Assembly: GCF_025362435.1 (NCBI RefSeq)
Contig: NZ_JANYGL010000088.1
Location: forward strand, 1-33,449
DNA length: 33,449 nucleotides
Reading direction: 5' to 3'
Source: Polymorphobacter sp.
GTDB taxonomy: Bacteria; Pseudomonadota; Alphaproteobacteria; Sphingomonadales; Sphingomonadaceae
Shown here: one piece after another, positions 12,363-31,295 of the stretch
How positions within the stretch are numbered: the stretch's first letter is position 1
How the letters are laid out: each line of letters opens with the position of its first letter
The notes under the pieces: generated by a model
Seen by the model: the letters and a program-made list of their open reading frames with translations, nothing else
The model's database searches: none
What the model was told of the DNA's origin: nothing
Made by a program: the position numbers and the translations under genes

Positions 12363-13904
12363 CTACGCCGCCGCTTCGAGCAACTTCGCCCGCCGCCGCG
12401 CGACGCTCGACCCGATGCCCATCGCTTCACGGTACTTCATTACCGTCCGACGCGCGATGTCGAAGCCTTCGGCTTGGAGCAGGACGACAAGCTTGTCGTC
12501 GCTCAGCGGCACCGCGGCGGGTTCGCCGGCGATCAGGTGGGCAATGCGGTTCTTGACCGCGAGCGCCGAAGACGCTTCGCCGCCGTCGTTGGACTGGATG
12601 CCGCTGGTGAAGAAATACTTGAGCTCGAAGAGGCCGCGGTCGCAGGCGAGATACTTGTTCGACGTCACCCGGCTGACGGTCGACTCGTGGACGCCGATCT
12701 CTTCAGCGATCGCTCTGAGCGTTAGCGGCTTGAGGTAGTTGACCCCGTATTCGAAGAACGCCTCCTGCTGCTTGACCAGCTCGGTCGCGACCTTGACGAT
12801 CGTCCGGGCGCGCTGGTCGAGCGCCTTGACCAGCCAGTTCGCGCTCGCAAGCGAATCCGACAGGAAGGCCTTGGTCTCGCGCGCGCGCTCCTTGGCATTC
12901 GCGTCGTGCCCGGTGATCGGCGCCGCGCTGAGCTTGGCGTGGTAGCCGCGGTCGACGAGGACGCGCGGTAGGGTCGCGCTGTTGAGCTCGACGACCCAGC
13001 CGCCTTTCGCCAGCCGGTGGACGAAGACGTCGGCAACGACGCTCTGCGCCCGTTCGCCGCCATATTGCAGCCCGGGCTTGGGGTTGTAGCCGCGGAGTTC
13101 GCGGATCATGTCCGACACGTCTTCCTGATCGACCCCGCAGACGCGGCGCAGCGTCGCCATGTCGCCGCGCGCTAGCGTCTCGAGGTTTGCCAGCAGCGCC
13201 GCCATTGCCGGGTCGAGGCGGTCGGCTTCGCGCGCCTGGACCGTCAGGCACTCGCGCAGGGTCCGTGCTCCGACTCCGACCGGATCGAAGGTGTGGATGA
13301 CGCCAAGGACACGCTCAACCGTCTCCGGATCGGCGTCGAGACGGTCGGCGACGTCGGCGACGCTGCTCCCGGTCAGGTATCCCGCGTCGTCGATCTGGTC
13401 GATCAGGTGGCGGGCGACGACGAGGTCGACGGGATCGGGAAAAGCCGCGACCGCCTGCTCAATCAGCAAGTCGATTAGCGACGGCTCGGCCGCGGCCATC
13501 GCGTCGAAATCGATCCCCTCGCCGTCGCCCGAACCGCCGTTGCCGATCGCGCCGGCGCCGTCGAAGCTGCCGCCCTGCTGGAAGCCGCCGTCGGTGATGC
13601 TGTCGGTAGGGCCGTCGTGGTGGAAGGTTTCGGCTGTGAAATCGACATCGAGCGGAGCGTCGGCGGCACCGTTGCCGGCGGCGATCAGCTGGTCGGCAGA
13701 CGCGGGCTCAGTAAGTGCTGCAGGAGCGGCGTCCGTCGTGCCGAGGTCGCTCGCGTCAAGCAGGGGGTTTTTCTCAAGCTCGGCGCCGATATAGGCCTCA
13801 AGCTCGACGTTGGTCAGCGCCAGCAGCTTGATCGCCTGCTGAAGCTGGACAGTCATCACCAGCGACTGGCTTTGACGGAGGTCGAGGCGGGGACCGATGC
13901 TCAT
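12363..13904 (-). CDS. rpoN: RNA polymerase sigma-54 factor
   Basis: RpoN directs RNA polymerase to -24/-12 promoters and needs an enhancer-binding ATPase for open-complex formation. The 513-aa protein has the Gln/Leu-rich activator-interacting N-terminus (RQSQSLVMTVQLQQAIKLL), an acidic linker, the core-binding domain, the HTH region (LRAIAEEIGVHESTVSRVTS) and the RpoN box ARRTVMKYRE at residues 484-493. It follows lptB by 23 bp on the same strand, the common alphaproteobacterial order. A candidate target promoter lies in this same window upstream of the PEP-CTERM gene. Confidence 0.97.
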   Translation of the reverse strand: MSIGPRLDLRQSQSLVMTVQLQQAIKLLALTNVELEAYIGAELEKNPLLDASDLGTTDAAPAALTEPASADQLIAAGNGAADAPLDVDFTAETFHHDGPTDSITDGGFQQGGSFDGAGAIGNGGSGDGEGIDFDAMAAAEPSLIDLLIEQAVAAFPDPVDLVVARHLIDQIDDAGYLTGSSVADVADRLDADPETVERVLGVIHTFDPVGVGARTLRECLTVQAREADRLDPAMAALLANLETLARGDMATLRRVCGVDQEDVSDMIRELRGYNPKPGLQYGGERAQSVVADVFVHRLAKGGWVVELNSATLPRVLVDRGYHAKLSAAPITGHDANAKERARETKAFLSDSLASANWLVKALDQRARTIVKVATELVKQQEAFFEYGVNYLKPLTLRAIAEEIGVHESTVSRVTSNKYLACDRGLFELKYFFTSGIQSNDGGEASSALAVKNRIAHLIAGEPAAVPLSDDKLVVLLQAEGFDIARRTVMKYREAMGIGSSVARRRAKLLEAAA

Positions 13905-27497: not shown

Positions 27498-30248
27498 ATG
27501 GCAAAGCAGCACCTCTACCTCGTCGACGGCTCGGGCTATATCTTCCGCGCCTATCACCGCCTCCCGCCGCTGACCGACCCGTCAGGGACGATGGTCAACG
27601 CGGTCTATGGCTTCACGACGATGCTGTGGAAGCTGATCGAGGAGCTCAACAAGGCCGAGGCACCGACCCACCTTGCGGTGATCTTCGATGCCGGCAGCCA
27701 GACCTTCCGCAACGAGATGTACGACCAGTACAAGGCGCATCGCCCGCCGCCGCCCGACGACCTGATCCCGCAGTTCCCGCTGATCCGCGACGCCGTTCGC
27801 GCCTTCTCGGTGCCGTGCATCGAGCAGGCTGGGTTCGAGGCCGACGACATAATCGCCTCGTACGCCTGCGCCGCGATCCGCTCCGGCTTCGACGTCTCGA
27901 TCGTGTCGTCGGACAAGGACTTGATGCAGCTCGTCCAGCCCGGGCTCGACATGTACGACACGATGAAGAACTGCCGGATCAACCGCGAGGACGTCGTCGA
28001 GAAGTTCGGCGTCCCCCCCGAGCAGCTGGGCGAGGTCCTCGCGCTGATGGGCGACAGCGTCGACAACATCCCCGGGGTCCGCGGCGTCGGCCCCAAGGGC
28101 GCGGCCGAGCTGATCGTCCAGTTCGGCAGCGTCGAGGCGATGCTGGCGCGGCTCGACGAGGTCAAGAAGCCCAAGCTGCGCGACAACCTCGCGGCGTCGG
28201 CCGACATGGCCCGCCTGTCGCGCGAGCTCGTCCGCCTCAAGGATGACCTGCCGCTGGCAATCCCGCTTGACGGGCTGACGCTGTCAGAGCCGCCGCACGA
28301 GCCGCTGGCGGCGTTCCTCGCCAAGCACGGCTTCCGCACCCTGCTCGCCAAGCTCGGCCGCGAGGTCGAGGCGGCGCATGCGCCCGCGCCGCCCGAGGTT
28401 CCCGCCGTGCCGTTCGACCATGCCAAGTATGAGTGCGTGACGACGCTCGACCGCCTCGACTGGTGGATCGCCGAGGCGACCCGGCGCGGCACGATCGCCT
28501 TCGATTCAGAGACGACCGCGCTCGATCCGGTCCGTGCCGAGCTCGTCGGCATCAGCCTTGCGCTCGAGCCCGGCCTCGCCTGCTACGTCCCGCTGGCGCA
28601 CAAGGTTGGCGACGGGCTGCTCGCCGAGCCGGTGGAGCAGCTCGACGTGCGGACCGCGCTCGACCGGCTCGGTCCGCTGTTCGCCAACCCTGCCGTCCTC
28701 AAGATCGGCCACGACTGCAAGTTCGACCTGATCGTGTTTCGCCAGCACGGCGCCGCCGAGATCGCCCCCTTCGAAGACACGATGCTGATGAGCTATGCGC
28801 TCGACGCGGGGAAGTGGAACCACGGCCTCGAGGAGCTGTCGGGGCGCCACCTCGACCACACGCCGATTGCGATGAAGGCGCTGACCGGCACCGCCAAGGC
28901 ACGGATCAGCTTCGAATATGTCCCGGTTGCCCGGGCCACCGAATACGCCGCCGAGGACGCCGACATCGCGCTGCGCCTCCACGCCGCCTTCGCCGCCCGG
29001 CTGTGGCGCGAGCGGGCGACGACGATCTACCGCAACGTCGACCTGCCGCTGCCGCCCGTCGTCGCGGCGATGGAGCTGGCCGGGATCAAGGTCGACCGGG
29101 CAGCGCTGTCGGGGCTGTCGGCGACCTACGAGATTGAGATCGCCGCGCTCGAGGAGCAGATCTTCGCGATGGCCGGGCACCCGTTCACCATCGGCAGCCC
29201 GAAGCAGCTCGGCGACGTCCTGTTCACCAAGCTCGGCCATGCCTCGGGCAAGAAGAGCGGCAAGACGGGCGCCTTCACGACCAACGTCACCGAGCTCGAA
29301 CGGCTTGCGGCGTCGGGCATCGACATCGCCGCGCGCGTCCTCGACTGGCGCCAGCTGACCAAGCTCAAGTCGACCTATACCGACGCCCTGCAGGAGCAGA
29401 TCAACCCCGCGACGGGGCGCGTCCACACCAGCTTCGGCCTCGCCAATTCGAGCACCGGGCGGCTGTCGTCGACCGACCCGAACCTCCAGAACATCCCGAT
29501 CCGGACCGAGCTCGGGCGCAAGATCCGCCACGCCTTCGTCGCCGAGCCGGGGCACGTCATCATGGCCGCAGACTATAACCAGATCGAGCTGCGGCTGGTC
29601 GCCCACATCGCCGACGTGCCCGAGCTGAAGCAGGTCTATGCCGAGGGCGGCGACGTCCACAATCTGACCGCGCAGGAGGTCTTCGGCGAGGTCACCCGCG
29701 ATACCCGCAACCGCGCCAAGACGATCAACTTCTCGATCATCTACGGCATCTCGGCGTTCGGGCTGGCGCAGCGCCTCGGCATCGATCGCGGCGAGGCGGC
29801 GCGCTACATCGACCTGTACTTCAGCCGCTTCCCCGGCATCCGCAATTACATGGCCGAGACCATCGCTAGCGCCCGCGAGCACGGCTTCGTGACGACGCTG
29901 TTCGACCGCAAGGTCAACGTCCCCATGATCTTCTCGAAGGTCATCGGCGAGCGCCAGAACGCCGAGCGCCAGGCGGTCAACGCCCGCGTCCAGGGCACCG
30001 CCGCCGACATCATCAAGCGGGCGATGACCCGGATGCCGGGGGCGCTCGCCGCCGCCGGACTGACCGGGACGCGGATGCTCCTCCAGGTCCACGACGAACT
30101 GGTGTTTGAGGTGCCCGACGGGGAGGTCGAGGCGGCGACCGAGGTGATCCGCACGACGATGGCGCATTCGCACAGCCCCGCTGTCGACCTGTCGATCCCG
30201 CTCGGGGTCGAGGTCGGGACGGGGGTCAGCTGGGGCGACGCGCACTAG
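27498..30248 (+). CDS. polA: DNA polymerase I
   Basis: Pol I removes RNA primers and fills gaps in replication and repair. The 916-aa protein has all three domains. The 5'-3' exonuclease includes FEADDIIASYA and GDSVDNIPGVRGVGPKGAA. The 3'-5' proofreading domain includes FDSETTALD with Asp336/Glu338, KIGHDCKFDL and YAAEDADIALRLH. The polymerase domain includes motif A MAADYNQIELRLVAHI (Asp692), motif B AKTINFSIIYGISAFGLA and motif C LLQVHDELVFEV (Asp866/Glu867). Motif A has Asn where many family members have Ser (DYSQIELR). The proofreading site looks intact. No frameshift is seen. Confidence 0.97.
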   Translation: MAKQHLYLVDGSGYIFRAYHRLPPLTDPSGTMVNAVYGFTTMLWKLIEELNKAEAPTHLAVIFDAGSQTFRNEMYDQYKAHRPPPPDDLIPQFPLIRDAVRAFSVPCIEQAGFEADDIIASYACAAIRSGFDVSIVSSDKDLMQLVQPGLDMYDTMKNCRINREDVVEKFGVPPEQLGEVLALMGDSVDNIPGVRGVGPKGAAELIVQFGSVEAMLARLDEVKKPKLRDNLAASADMARLSRELVRLKDDLPLAIPLDGLTLSEPPHEPLAAFLAKHGFRTLLAKLGREVEAAHAPAPPEVPAVPFDHAKYECVTTLDRLDWWIAEATRRGTIAFDSETTALDPVRAELVGISLALEPGLACYVPLAHKVGDGLLAEPVEQLDVRTALDRLGPLFANPAVLKIGHDCKFDLIVFRQHGAAEIAPFEDTMLMSYALDAGKWNHGLEELSGRHLDHTPIAMKALTGTAKARISFEYVPVARATEYAAEDADIALRLHAAFAARLWRERATTIYRNVDLPLPPVVAAMELAGIKVDRAALSGLSATYEIEIAALEEQIFAMAGHPFTIGSPKQLGDVLFTKLGHASGKKSGKTGAFTTNVTELERLAASGIDIAARVLDWRQLTKLKSTYTDALQEQINPATGRVHTSFGLANSSTGRLSSTDPNLQNIPIRTELGRKIRHAFVAEPGHVIMAADYNQIELRLVAHIADVPELKQVYAEGGDVHNLTAQEVFGEVTRDTRNRAKTINFSIIYGISAFGLAQRLGIDRGEAARYIDLYFSRFPGIRNYMAETIASAREHGFVTTLFDRKVNVPMIFSKVIGERQNAERQAVNARVQGTAADIIKRAMTRMPGALAAAGLTGTRMLLQVHDELVFEVPDGEVEAATEVIRTTMAHSHSPAVDLSIPLGVEVGTGVSWGDAH

Positions 30249-30299
30249 CTCGCAAGGTCGTCGGCGACGGCAGCGTGGAATCGAGAAGCAGCTTAAAAC

Positions 30300-30316
30300 T
30301 GTAAGATATCTTTACA
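30300..30316. promoter_or_regulatory. Dyad upstream of sigma-54 promoter
   Basis: TGTAA and TTACA flank seven bases (GATATCT) in an AT-rich patch about 90 bp upstream of the predicted -24/-12 start site. This is a typical distance for an enhancer-binding-protein site. The match to a particular regulator is not established. Confidence 0.4.
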
Positions 30317-30380
30317 CATACGTTACGACTTCCTTCGGGCCAGACCGCGCCGACGTAGGAGAGGTCCCCAAAACCGTCAA

Positions 30381-30398
30381 TTGGCATGGTTCATGCTT
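30381..30398 (+). promoter_or_regulatory. Sigma-54 (-24/-12) promoter
   Basis: TTGGCATG-GTTC-ATGCTT matches the consensus TTGGCACG-N4-TTGCW with two differences. The invariant GG (30383-30384) and GC (30395-30396) are exactly ten bases apart. The predicted transcript start is near 30408, leaving about 40 bases before the GTG start of the PEP-CTERM gene. Confidence 0.7.
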
Positions 30399-30447
30399 AG
30401 TTGCGGACGATGGCTGATCAAAGCCATTCCAAAAGGGGGAGATCCCA

Positions 30448-30933
30448 GTGAAACTGTCCGCAACTATCGGCGCACTGCTTGCAGCCACATTGCTCGTTTC
30501 GGCATCGGCAGCCACCGCATCGGCACTGATTACTGAAACCTACGACGGCGACTTTGACGCGGCCTACTTGCACGTTACCAACATCGGTAGCGGTTCCTTC
30601 ACCAGCATCGCCATCAGCGGCGGCGACAATGGCGGCAGCGCAAGCTTCACCAACATCGGCGTGGGCACCACCGTCGACTTTGCTCTTGGCGACAACGAAT
30701 ACGATTTCCCCGGCAGCCAGGGTACGGCGCTCGTCACGATCGTCAGGAACGGCCGGACCTTCTCCGGTTCGTTCACCGACGTGATTGGCGATCCTGACTT
30801 CAACGTCGGTCCGGTCACGCTCGGTACGCTCGGCACGGTGCCCGAGCCCGCGGCATGGGGCATGATGCTGACCGGCTTCGGCCTTCTCGGCGCAACGATG
30901 CGCCGGTCACGCGCGACGACCGTCGCCGCCTGA
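30448..30933 (+). CDS. PEPxxWA-CTERM sorting domain protein
   Basis: A 161-aa exported protein. A signal peptide of about 26 residues (MKLSATIGALLAATLLVSAS ...) is followed by a Gly/Ser/Asp-rich beta-type mature region. The C-terminal tripartite signal is PEP at 132-134 (VPEPAAWGMM), a hydrophobic helix (LTGFGLLGA) and a basic end (MRRSR). This signal is processed by exosortase, and such proteins are linked to exopolysaccharide and biofilm matrix. Gly replaces the usual Ala after Trp. The GTG start follows AAGGGGGAGA. A sigma-54 promoter lies just upstream. No exosortase gene is in the window. Confidence 0.9.
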   Translation: MKLSATIGALLAATLLVSASAATASALITETYDGDFDAAYLHVTNIGSGSFTSIAISGGDNGGSASFTNIGVGTTVDFALGDNEYDFPGSQGTALVTIVRNGRTFSGSFTDVIGDPDFNVGPVTLGTLGTVPEPAAWGMMLTGFGLLGATMRRSRATTVAA

Positions 30934-30955
30934 TCGTCTTCGCACGTTAGATCGA

Positions 30956-30980
30956 CCGGCGGCGCAGACGGCGCCGCCGG
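30956..30980 (+). terminator. Hairpin after PEP-CTERM gene
   Basis: A perfect 10-bp GC stem, CCGGCGGCGC with GCGCCGCCGG around AGACG, starts 22 bases after the stop. Only a weak pyrimidine tract (CCTTCC) follows. A second small hairpin, CCGCC-ACAA-GGCGG, is at 30992-31005. Confidence 0.6.
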
Positions 30981-31085
30981 ACCTTCCTGGCCCGCCACAA
31001 GGCGGCCGCGGGCAGCTCGGATCGACTAGCGGTTCCGCTCCCCGAATGCCGCAAAGACCGTGCAACCGCACCGTCTGCACCGCCC

Positions 31086-31295
31086 GAAGTCCACGAAGTC
31101 CACACGAAACCGTGGTCTGTTGCAGACTGTCTGGAGCGACGCTTCCACCGAAGTCCACGGGGTAGCGAGTCGCTGGAGCCGGCGCTTTTTTTCGTCGAAC
31201 GACGATCATACTCGTCCGCCTGTGGAGATTTAACCCCTCCCCGCGGACGCATCCTCAAGGCCGGCGCGCCGCGGAAGTCCACTAAGTCCACACGA
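31086..31295. repeat. GAAGTCCAC repeat cluster
   Basis: The 9-mer GAAGTCCAC occurs in tandem at 31086-31103, singly at 31150-31158, and again at 31274-31282 followed directly by TAAGTCCAC. The 22-base blocks 31086-31107 and 31274-31295 differ at one base. The minus-strand reading, GTGTGGACTTnGTGGACTTC, is from memory a recurrent intergenic motif in sphingomonad genomes. Confidence 0.7.
31171..31192 (+). terminator. Intrinsic terminator with T7 tract
   Basis: CGCTG (31171-31175) and CGGCG (31180-31184) pair across a GAGC loop, including one G-U pair, and are followed by C and seven T (31186-31192). This is the best intrinsic terminator seen in the window. It lies about 240 bases after the PEP-CTERM stop, with no gene between. 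Confidence 0.55.

Follow-up and report, generated by a model that had tools for sequence, protein, structure and literature searches.

A predicted PrsR/sigma-54 promoter of the PEP-CTERM box class in Polymorphobacter sp., its box spacing in helical register, and a candidate small RNA in sphingomonad relatives

Proteobacterial PEP-CTERM genes were described in 2006 as being preceded by a 17-nt motif that ends in TTTACA (Haft 2006, PMC1569441). In that description, this motif (motif 1) is followed, after a spacer of 62.8 ± 10.6 nt (range 32–92 nt), by a sigma-54 motif that lies 71 ± 38 nt from the start codon. The same paper links the box to PrsK, PrsR and PrsT by phylogenetic profile and gives the number found as 99 of 167. 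An experimental example is the pepA gene of Aquincola tertiaricarbonis RN12 (PMC9850573), whose −24/−12 promoter reads TGGCAC...CTGCTT and is predicted to have an enhancer upstream; the transcription start of pepA was mapped, and its dependence on rpoN1 was established by experiment. The NtrC-type activators of sigma-54 likewise combine a response regulator with AAA+ and Fis-type parts and sit ~100 bp upstream. PrsR, however, forms a family apart and has a box of its own; the PrsR protein of the genome studied here scored 661 bits against TIGR02915 compared to 382 bits against the NtrC model TIGR01818 (cut-off 558.6).

We analyzed a stretch of 33,449 nucleotides from Polymorphobacter sp. (contig NZ_JANYGL010000088.1), referred to below as the window. 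The features of the site and of its presumed partners are collected in Table 1. The window site agrees with the 2006 description in the order of the motifs, their lengths, the spacing, the distance to the start codon and the type of gene, and the genome, like the systems described there, has PrsK, PrsR and an exosortase. The match of motif 1 consists of the 17-nt length and the TTTACA end. The local form of the box is given here as TGTCGG-N5-YTTACA, with a symmetric TGTAAG variant in the window. By its layout, the window site is an ordinary instance of the PEP-CTERM box system described in 2006. With RN12 pepA it shares a PEP-CTERM gene, a −24/−12 promoter, a predicted enhancer and a genome with PrsK and PrsR, while the start and the rpoN1 dependence are experimental in RN12 and are inferred from sequence in the window. 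Two observations reported below probably go beyond the 2006 paper, where the spacing is summarized, in the passages compared, by a mean and a spread: the spacing is in helical register, and in sphingomonad relatives the promoter probably also drives a non-coding target, a covarying hairpin RNA.

Table 1. Location of the features discussed in the text. Bare numbers are positions in the window; C31 and C120 are contigs of the same genome.
Feature	Location	Strand	Evidence or remark
Activator box (PEP-CTERM box motif 1), TGTAAGATATCTTTACA	30300..30316	+	predicted PrsR site
Sigma-54 promoter, TTGGCATGGTTCATGCTTA	30381..30399	+	exact GG-N10-GC spacing
−24 element TTGGCATG, −12 element ATGCTTA	within 30381..30399	+	
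Transcription start, inferred	30408	+	~12 nt past the GC of the −12 (± 2), standard sigma-54 geometry
Likely ribosome binding site, AGGGGGAGA	30434..30442	+	direct sequence reading
Gene for a PEPxxWA-CTERM protein of 161 aa, starting with GTG	30448..30933	+	NF035944, PF07589
PEP-CTERM sorting motif, VPEPAAWGMMLTGFGLLGATMRRS	30835..30906	+	
rpoN (RNA polymerase sigma-54 factor)	12363..13904	−	NF004596, 643 bits (cut-off 499)
PrsK	C31:9760-11793		613 bits (cut-off 300)
PrsR	C31:11886-13208		661 bits, TIGR02915 (cut-off 502.6)
Exosortase, one in genome	C120:44685-45452		PF09721, 203 bits
Candidate RNA loci L285-L300	e.g. G007:C1:1305384-1305440, G043:C42:22973-23030		beside grxD, 16 sphingomonad genomes

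The initial annotation had proposed a sigma-54 promoter with an upstream dyad in front of a PEP-CTERM gene, and we found these parts in place. The −24/−12 element has the exact spacing claimed for it, and from its end there are 48 nt to the GTG start codon at 30448 (48–50 nt in the comparison with the 2006 layout). The 161-aa product has a signal peptide-like N terminus and passes the cut-offs of both the NCBIfam PEPxxWA-CTERM model NF035944 (43.5 bits, cut-off 35) and Pfam PF07589 (24.6 bits, cut-off 20.7). The dyad is present once in the window; its position "about 90 bp upstream" is correct only when the count begins at the inferred transcription start and not at the GTG, which is 131 nt from the end of the box. 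The spacer between the box and the TGGCA of the −24 element is 64–65 nt. The polA gene, upstream on the same strand, ends at 30248, leaving an intergenic gap of 199 nt. The presence of rpoN in the window was stated correctly as well, and its product has three Sigma54 Pfam domains, but the special linkage suggested for it did not hold: rpoN sits beside lptB ~17 kb from the site, and for this reason we rejected the linkage as evidence. Location of rpoN beside lptB is a common housekeeping arrangement. The rpoN product is needed in trans, and its gene is not adjacent to the gene at 30448.

The motif itself had to be corrected. As a regulon motif the initial annotation had offered TGTAA-N7-TTACA, to recur with −24/−12 elements before other PEP-CTERM genes. 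A search of the own genome returned a single other copy of this exact dyad (C21:6186, TGTAACCTGTGGTTACA), near which neither the promoter nor a PEP-CTERM gene was seen, and the exact dyad was rejected; read to the letter, it would not have withstood the test of recurrence that the initial annotation itself had set. The box that does recur, together with the promoter and before many PEP-CTERM genes of the own genome, is TGTCGG-N5-YTTACA. We built weight matrices from 29 box–promoter pairs found in four congeneric genomes, with the window's own genome excluded. By these matrices the window box scored 21.5 bits (training sites 19.3–32.4) and the −24/−12 element 23.4 bits (training sites 17.1–28.3). 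Of the 29 same-genus sites, 28 have C at position 4 of the box and 28 have G at position 5, compared to A at both positions in the window. As a result, the left arm of the window box is an inverted copy of TTTACA, and the whole is a near-perfect dyad. The window dyad is, therefore, an exception among the boxes and an unusually symmetric one; with its left half-site TGTAAG it may form a symmetric operator that is stronger than the common type with TGTCGG. Searching for the box alone with two mismatches allowed was no better than the control (158 compared to 132 matches), so the box is informative only if it is near-exact or paired with a promoter.

The own genome is a 2.9 Mb draft of 165 contigs and belongs to a sphingomonad as judged by its PolA, which is 85% identical to that of a lichen Sphingomonadaceae MAG and 78% identical to that of Glacieibacterium frigidum. 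We counted 35 PEP-CTERM genes in it, 34 by Pfam matches and one found via its box. The box and the promoter were present at no fewer than 14 of the 35; a box with a strict promoter at 50–117 nt was seen in 13 and a box only in two, with one further gene carrying box and promoter split across contigs C45 and C24. Since about half of the family lacks the pair, not every member depends on it; such partial coverage is normal, given the 99 of 167 in the 2006 paper. The strict pair occurred at 10 places in the genome compared to none for the reversed-pattern control; nine of these precede PEP-CTERM genes and one a small membrane-protein-like ORF. The genes of PrsK and PrsR are in tandem, on a contig other than the window's. 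With the tandem genes and a pair standing almost exclusively before PEP-CTERM genes, sigma-54 with an upstream activator of the PrsK/PrsR type, as first suggested, was the best reading.

Boxes in reversed orientation were also observed in the own genome, on contigs C54 (L001), C61 (L020), C150 (L046) and C40 (C40:313-329, L054). The distance from these boxes to the promoter was 95–117 nt in three measured cases and ~104 nt in C40, compared to 50–73 nt, and in one case 108 nt, for the forward boxes, which suggests that orientation and distance trade off. Furthermore, a box with a sigma-54 promoter lies over the 3' end of fmt both in the own genome (C119:19166-19247, L088) and in a relative (G005:C1:3794700-3794781, L226). 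This pair leads to a small ORF of ~44–46 codons, conserved in the genus, with one hydrophobic membrane-spanning stretch (RTNLVWVIGIAAGILVGGIVAYGVSSSNAET); it is possible that this ORF codes for a PrsR-controlled small membrane protein.

The survey was extended to 98 relatives, which together with the own genome make a set of 99, divided by the curated PrsR cut-off into 66 with and 33 without PrsR. The pair pattern had 182 sites compared to 7 controls in the PrsR-positive genomes, and 15 compared to 9 in the genomes without PrsR. Sites were present in 54 of the 66 PrsR-positive genomes and in 9 of the 33 others (Fisher P = 1.7e-7). At least two genomes with sites that were counted as PrsR-negative, G061 and G079, have incomplete matches to PrsR; the counts would therefore, if anything, underrate the contrast. 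The search pattern contained only the TTACA of the box; still, TGTCGG was present in most matches. Downstream of 25 of the 29 same-genus sites a regular expression found a PEP-CTERM-like motif, at least one of the 25 looking spurious. The best same-genus homolog of the window protein (G003:C18:17882-18298, ~40% identity) directly follows a box–promoter pair.

Conservation of the arrangement behind polA was considered and rejected: the loci with the closest PolA (L093 and L143) have no PEP-CTERM gene with a box behind polA, and the gene at L142 is unrelated by eye and has no box. At L142, in Glacieibacterium frigidum, two tandem related PEP-CTERM genes stand directly behind polA without a box, and the window has a single, apparently unrelated PEP-CTERM gene at the position used by that pair.

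The spacer between box and promoter turned out to be quantised. At 140 sites, among the matches listed for PrsR-positive genomes, the spacer length peaked at 53, 64 and 74 nt and hardly ever fell between these values, and 123 of these 140 listed sites were no more than 2 nt from 53 + 10.5k, compared to 42% expected under uniformity. From this periodicity, further peaks near 84.5 and 95 nt were predicted before the search. The search at 76–106 nt gave 10 sites and no controls, with the sites at 83–86 and 94–95 nt. The P value is 1.7e-4 if spacers are uniform. This value, like the register statistics as a whole, has to be read with the caveats that the sites of any one genome are not independent of each other and that some pairs are recent duplicates. 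Box–promoter spacing thus follows steps of ~10.5 bp (53, 64, 74, 84 and 95 nt), with the window spacer in the main peak. Such a register is as predicted for DNA looping by an activator specific to one face of the helix. It also provides a simple rule that can be put to the test: with the box displaced by half a helical turn, the promoter should fall silent.

Directly observed are the DNA elements with their recurrence and register, the sorting motif of the product, and the presence of genes coding for sigma-54, PrsK, PrsR and an exosortase; from these we infer a chain of steps at the window site. The membrane kinase PrsK would phosphorylate PrsR, and phosphorylated PrsR would bind the 17-nt box. 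DNA looping would then bring it onto the sigma-54 RNA polymerase at the −24/−12 element, where the AAA+ domain of PrsR would open the promoter for transcription from ~30408. The product would be exported and, through its PEP-CTERM tail, sorted by the exosortase, to end up at the exopolysaccharide or biofilm surface. We estimate the probability that the site is a PEP-CTERM box promoter run by PrsK, PrsR, looping and sigma-54 at about 0.88.

Long sequences naturally produce short motifs by chance, and the box and the −24/−12 element could be just that. Each motif, however, is single-copy in the window, with shuffle expectations of 0.00 for the box and 0.02 for the promoter, and jointly the pair scored 44.9 bits by the same-genus matrices compared to a maximum of 19.1 bits in 200 windows of equal length simulated by a Markov model. 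Moreover, the two motifs stand on the correct strand, in the correct order, at the correct spacing and before the right gene. A chance match is statistically refuted, and the probability that we leave to it is negligible.

What counts against control by PrsK/PrsR and sigma-54 is that the window box differs from the genus consensus at two near-invariant positions, that the genome encodes several other AAA+ activators of sigma-54 (e.g., at C125:4122-5468 and C125:8162-9268), and that about half of the PEP-CTERM genes are without the pair. One of the other enhancer-binding proteins could act at the variant box, given its left half-site TGTAAG in place of the usual TGTCGG. Yet in its right half-site, spacing and promoter the site fits the class linked to PrsR. 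Its symmetric left arm is the conserved TTTACA half-site inverted, and the box score is inside the same-genus range; we regard action of another activator as improbable. It is still harder to believe that read-through from polA or an unrecognised sigma-70 promoter mainly drives the gene, with the box and the −24/−12 element being inactive remnants. Such an explanation would draw on polA, which has the same orientation and ends just 200 nt ahead of the gene, and on a box slightly off consensus. Conversely, no sigma-70-like promoter was found in 30230–31100, the two elements are intact, as is the distance between them, and the lack of a box-bearing PEP-CTERM gene behind polA at L093 and L143 argues against an old polA operon. 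Control by PrsR and sigma-54 remains the preferred reading.

The same promoter type probably has another target in relatives. In many genomes of the Sphingomonadaceae type, a single strict pair is followed by a short hairpin and by no PEP-CTERM gene. Eleven such sequences were aligned with a 9-pair stem, and compensatory changes were seen at all nine pairs; none of 500 shuffles reached any of five measures, and the signal vanished when the pairing was slid. The hairpin of the candidate RNA ends in a C-rich CCUCCCC, and often a terminator-like hairpin comes after it. A covariance model built from the eleven sequences matched four genomes outside the training set with E ≤ 1.0e-4 (G043, G045, G013 and G053), and in all four a box and a promoter 64–65 nt apart stand just upstream, two of the boxes being exact and two having one mismatch. 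With E ≤ 1.1e-4, the RNA was detected in 16 genomes; in each it is convergent with a gene for a CGFS glutaredoxin (grxD-like), and all 16 genomes are PrsR-positive. An Rfam scan of seven of the grxD-side loci returned nothing but tRNAs. The model had no match in the own genome at E ≤ 1, and a weak match in G002 (E = 0.55) was taken as chance. In the window's genus, which is without the grxD-side RNA, the promoter stands instead before the small membrane-protein-like ORF.

A weak copy of the RNA (E = 0.004) was observed beside grxD in a PrsR-negative genome (G038:C13:195589-195664), where only a decayed box was seen and the −24/−12 element was not found. This copy is possibly a relic left after loss of the regulator.

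We consider it likely that the PrsK/PrsR/sigma-54 regulon extends beyond PEP-CTERM proteins to a candidate sigma-54-dependent small RNA, co-induced with them and probably silencing mRNAs during production of the biofilm matrix. A literature search, with subscription journals mostly outside its reach, returned no paper joining PEP-CTERM, sigma-54, small RNA and Sphingomonas.

For a regulatory class known mostly from prediction, the window promoter provides a sphingomonad example along with a corrected motif that can be searched for. The candidate RNA is the part likely to surprise specialists. A conserved RNA of this kind would add a post-transcriptional arm to PrsK/PrsR, and it would be a strong and compact reporter for finding the signal sensed by PrsK.
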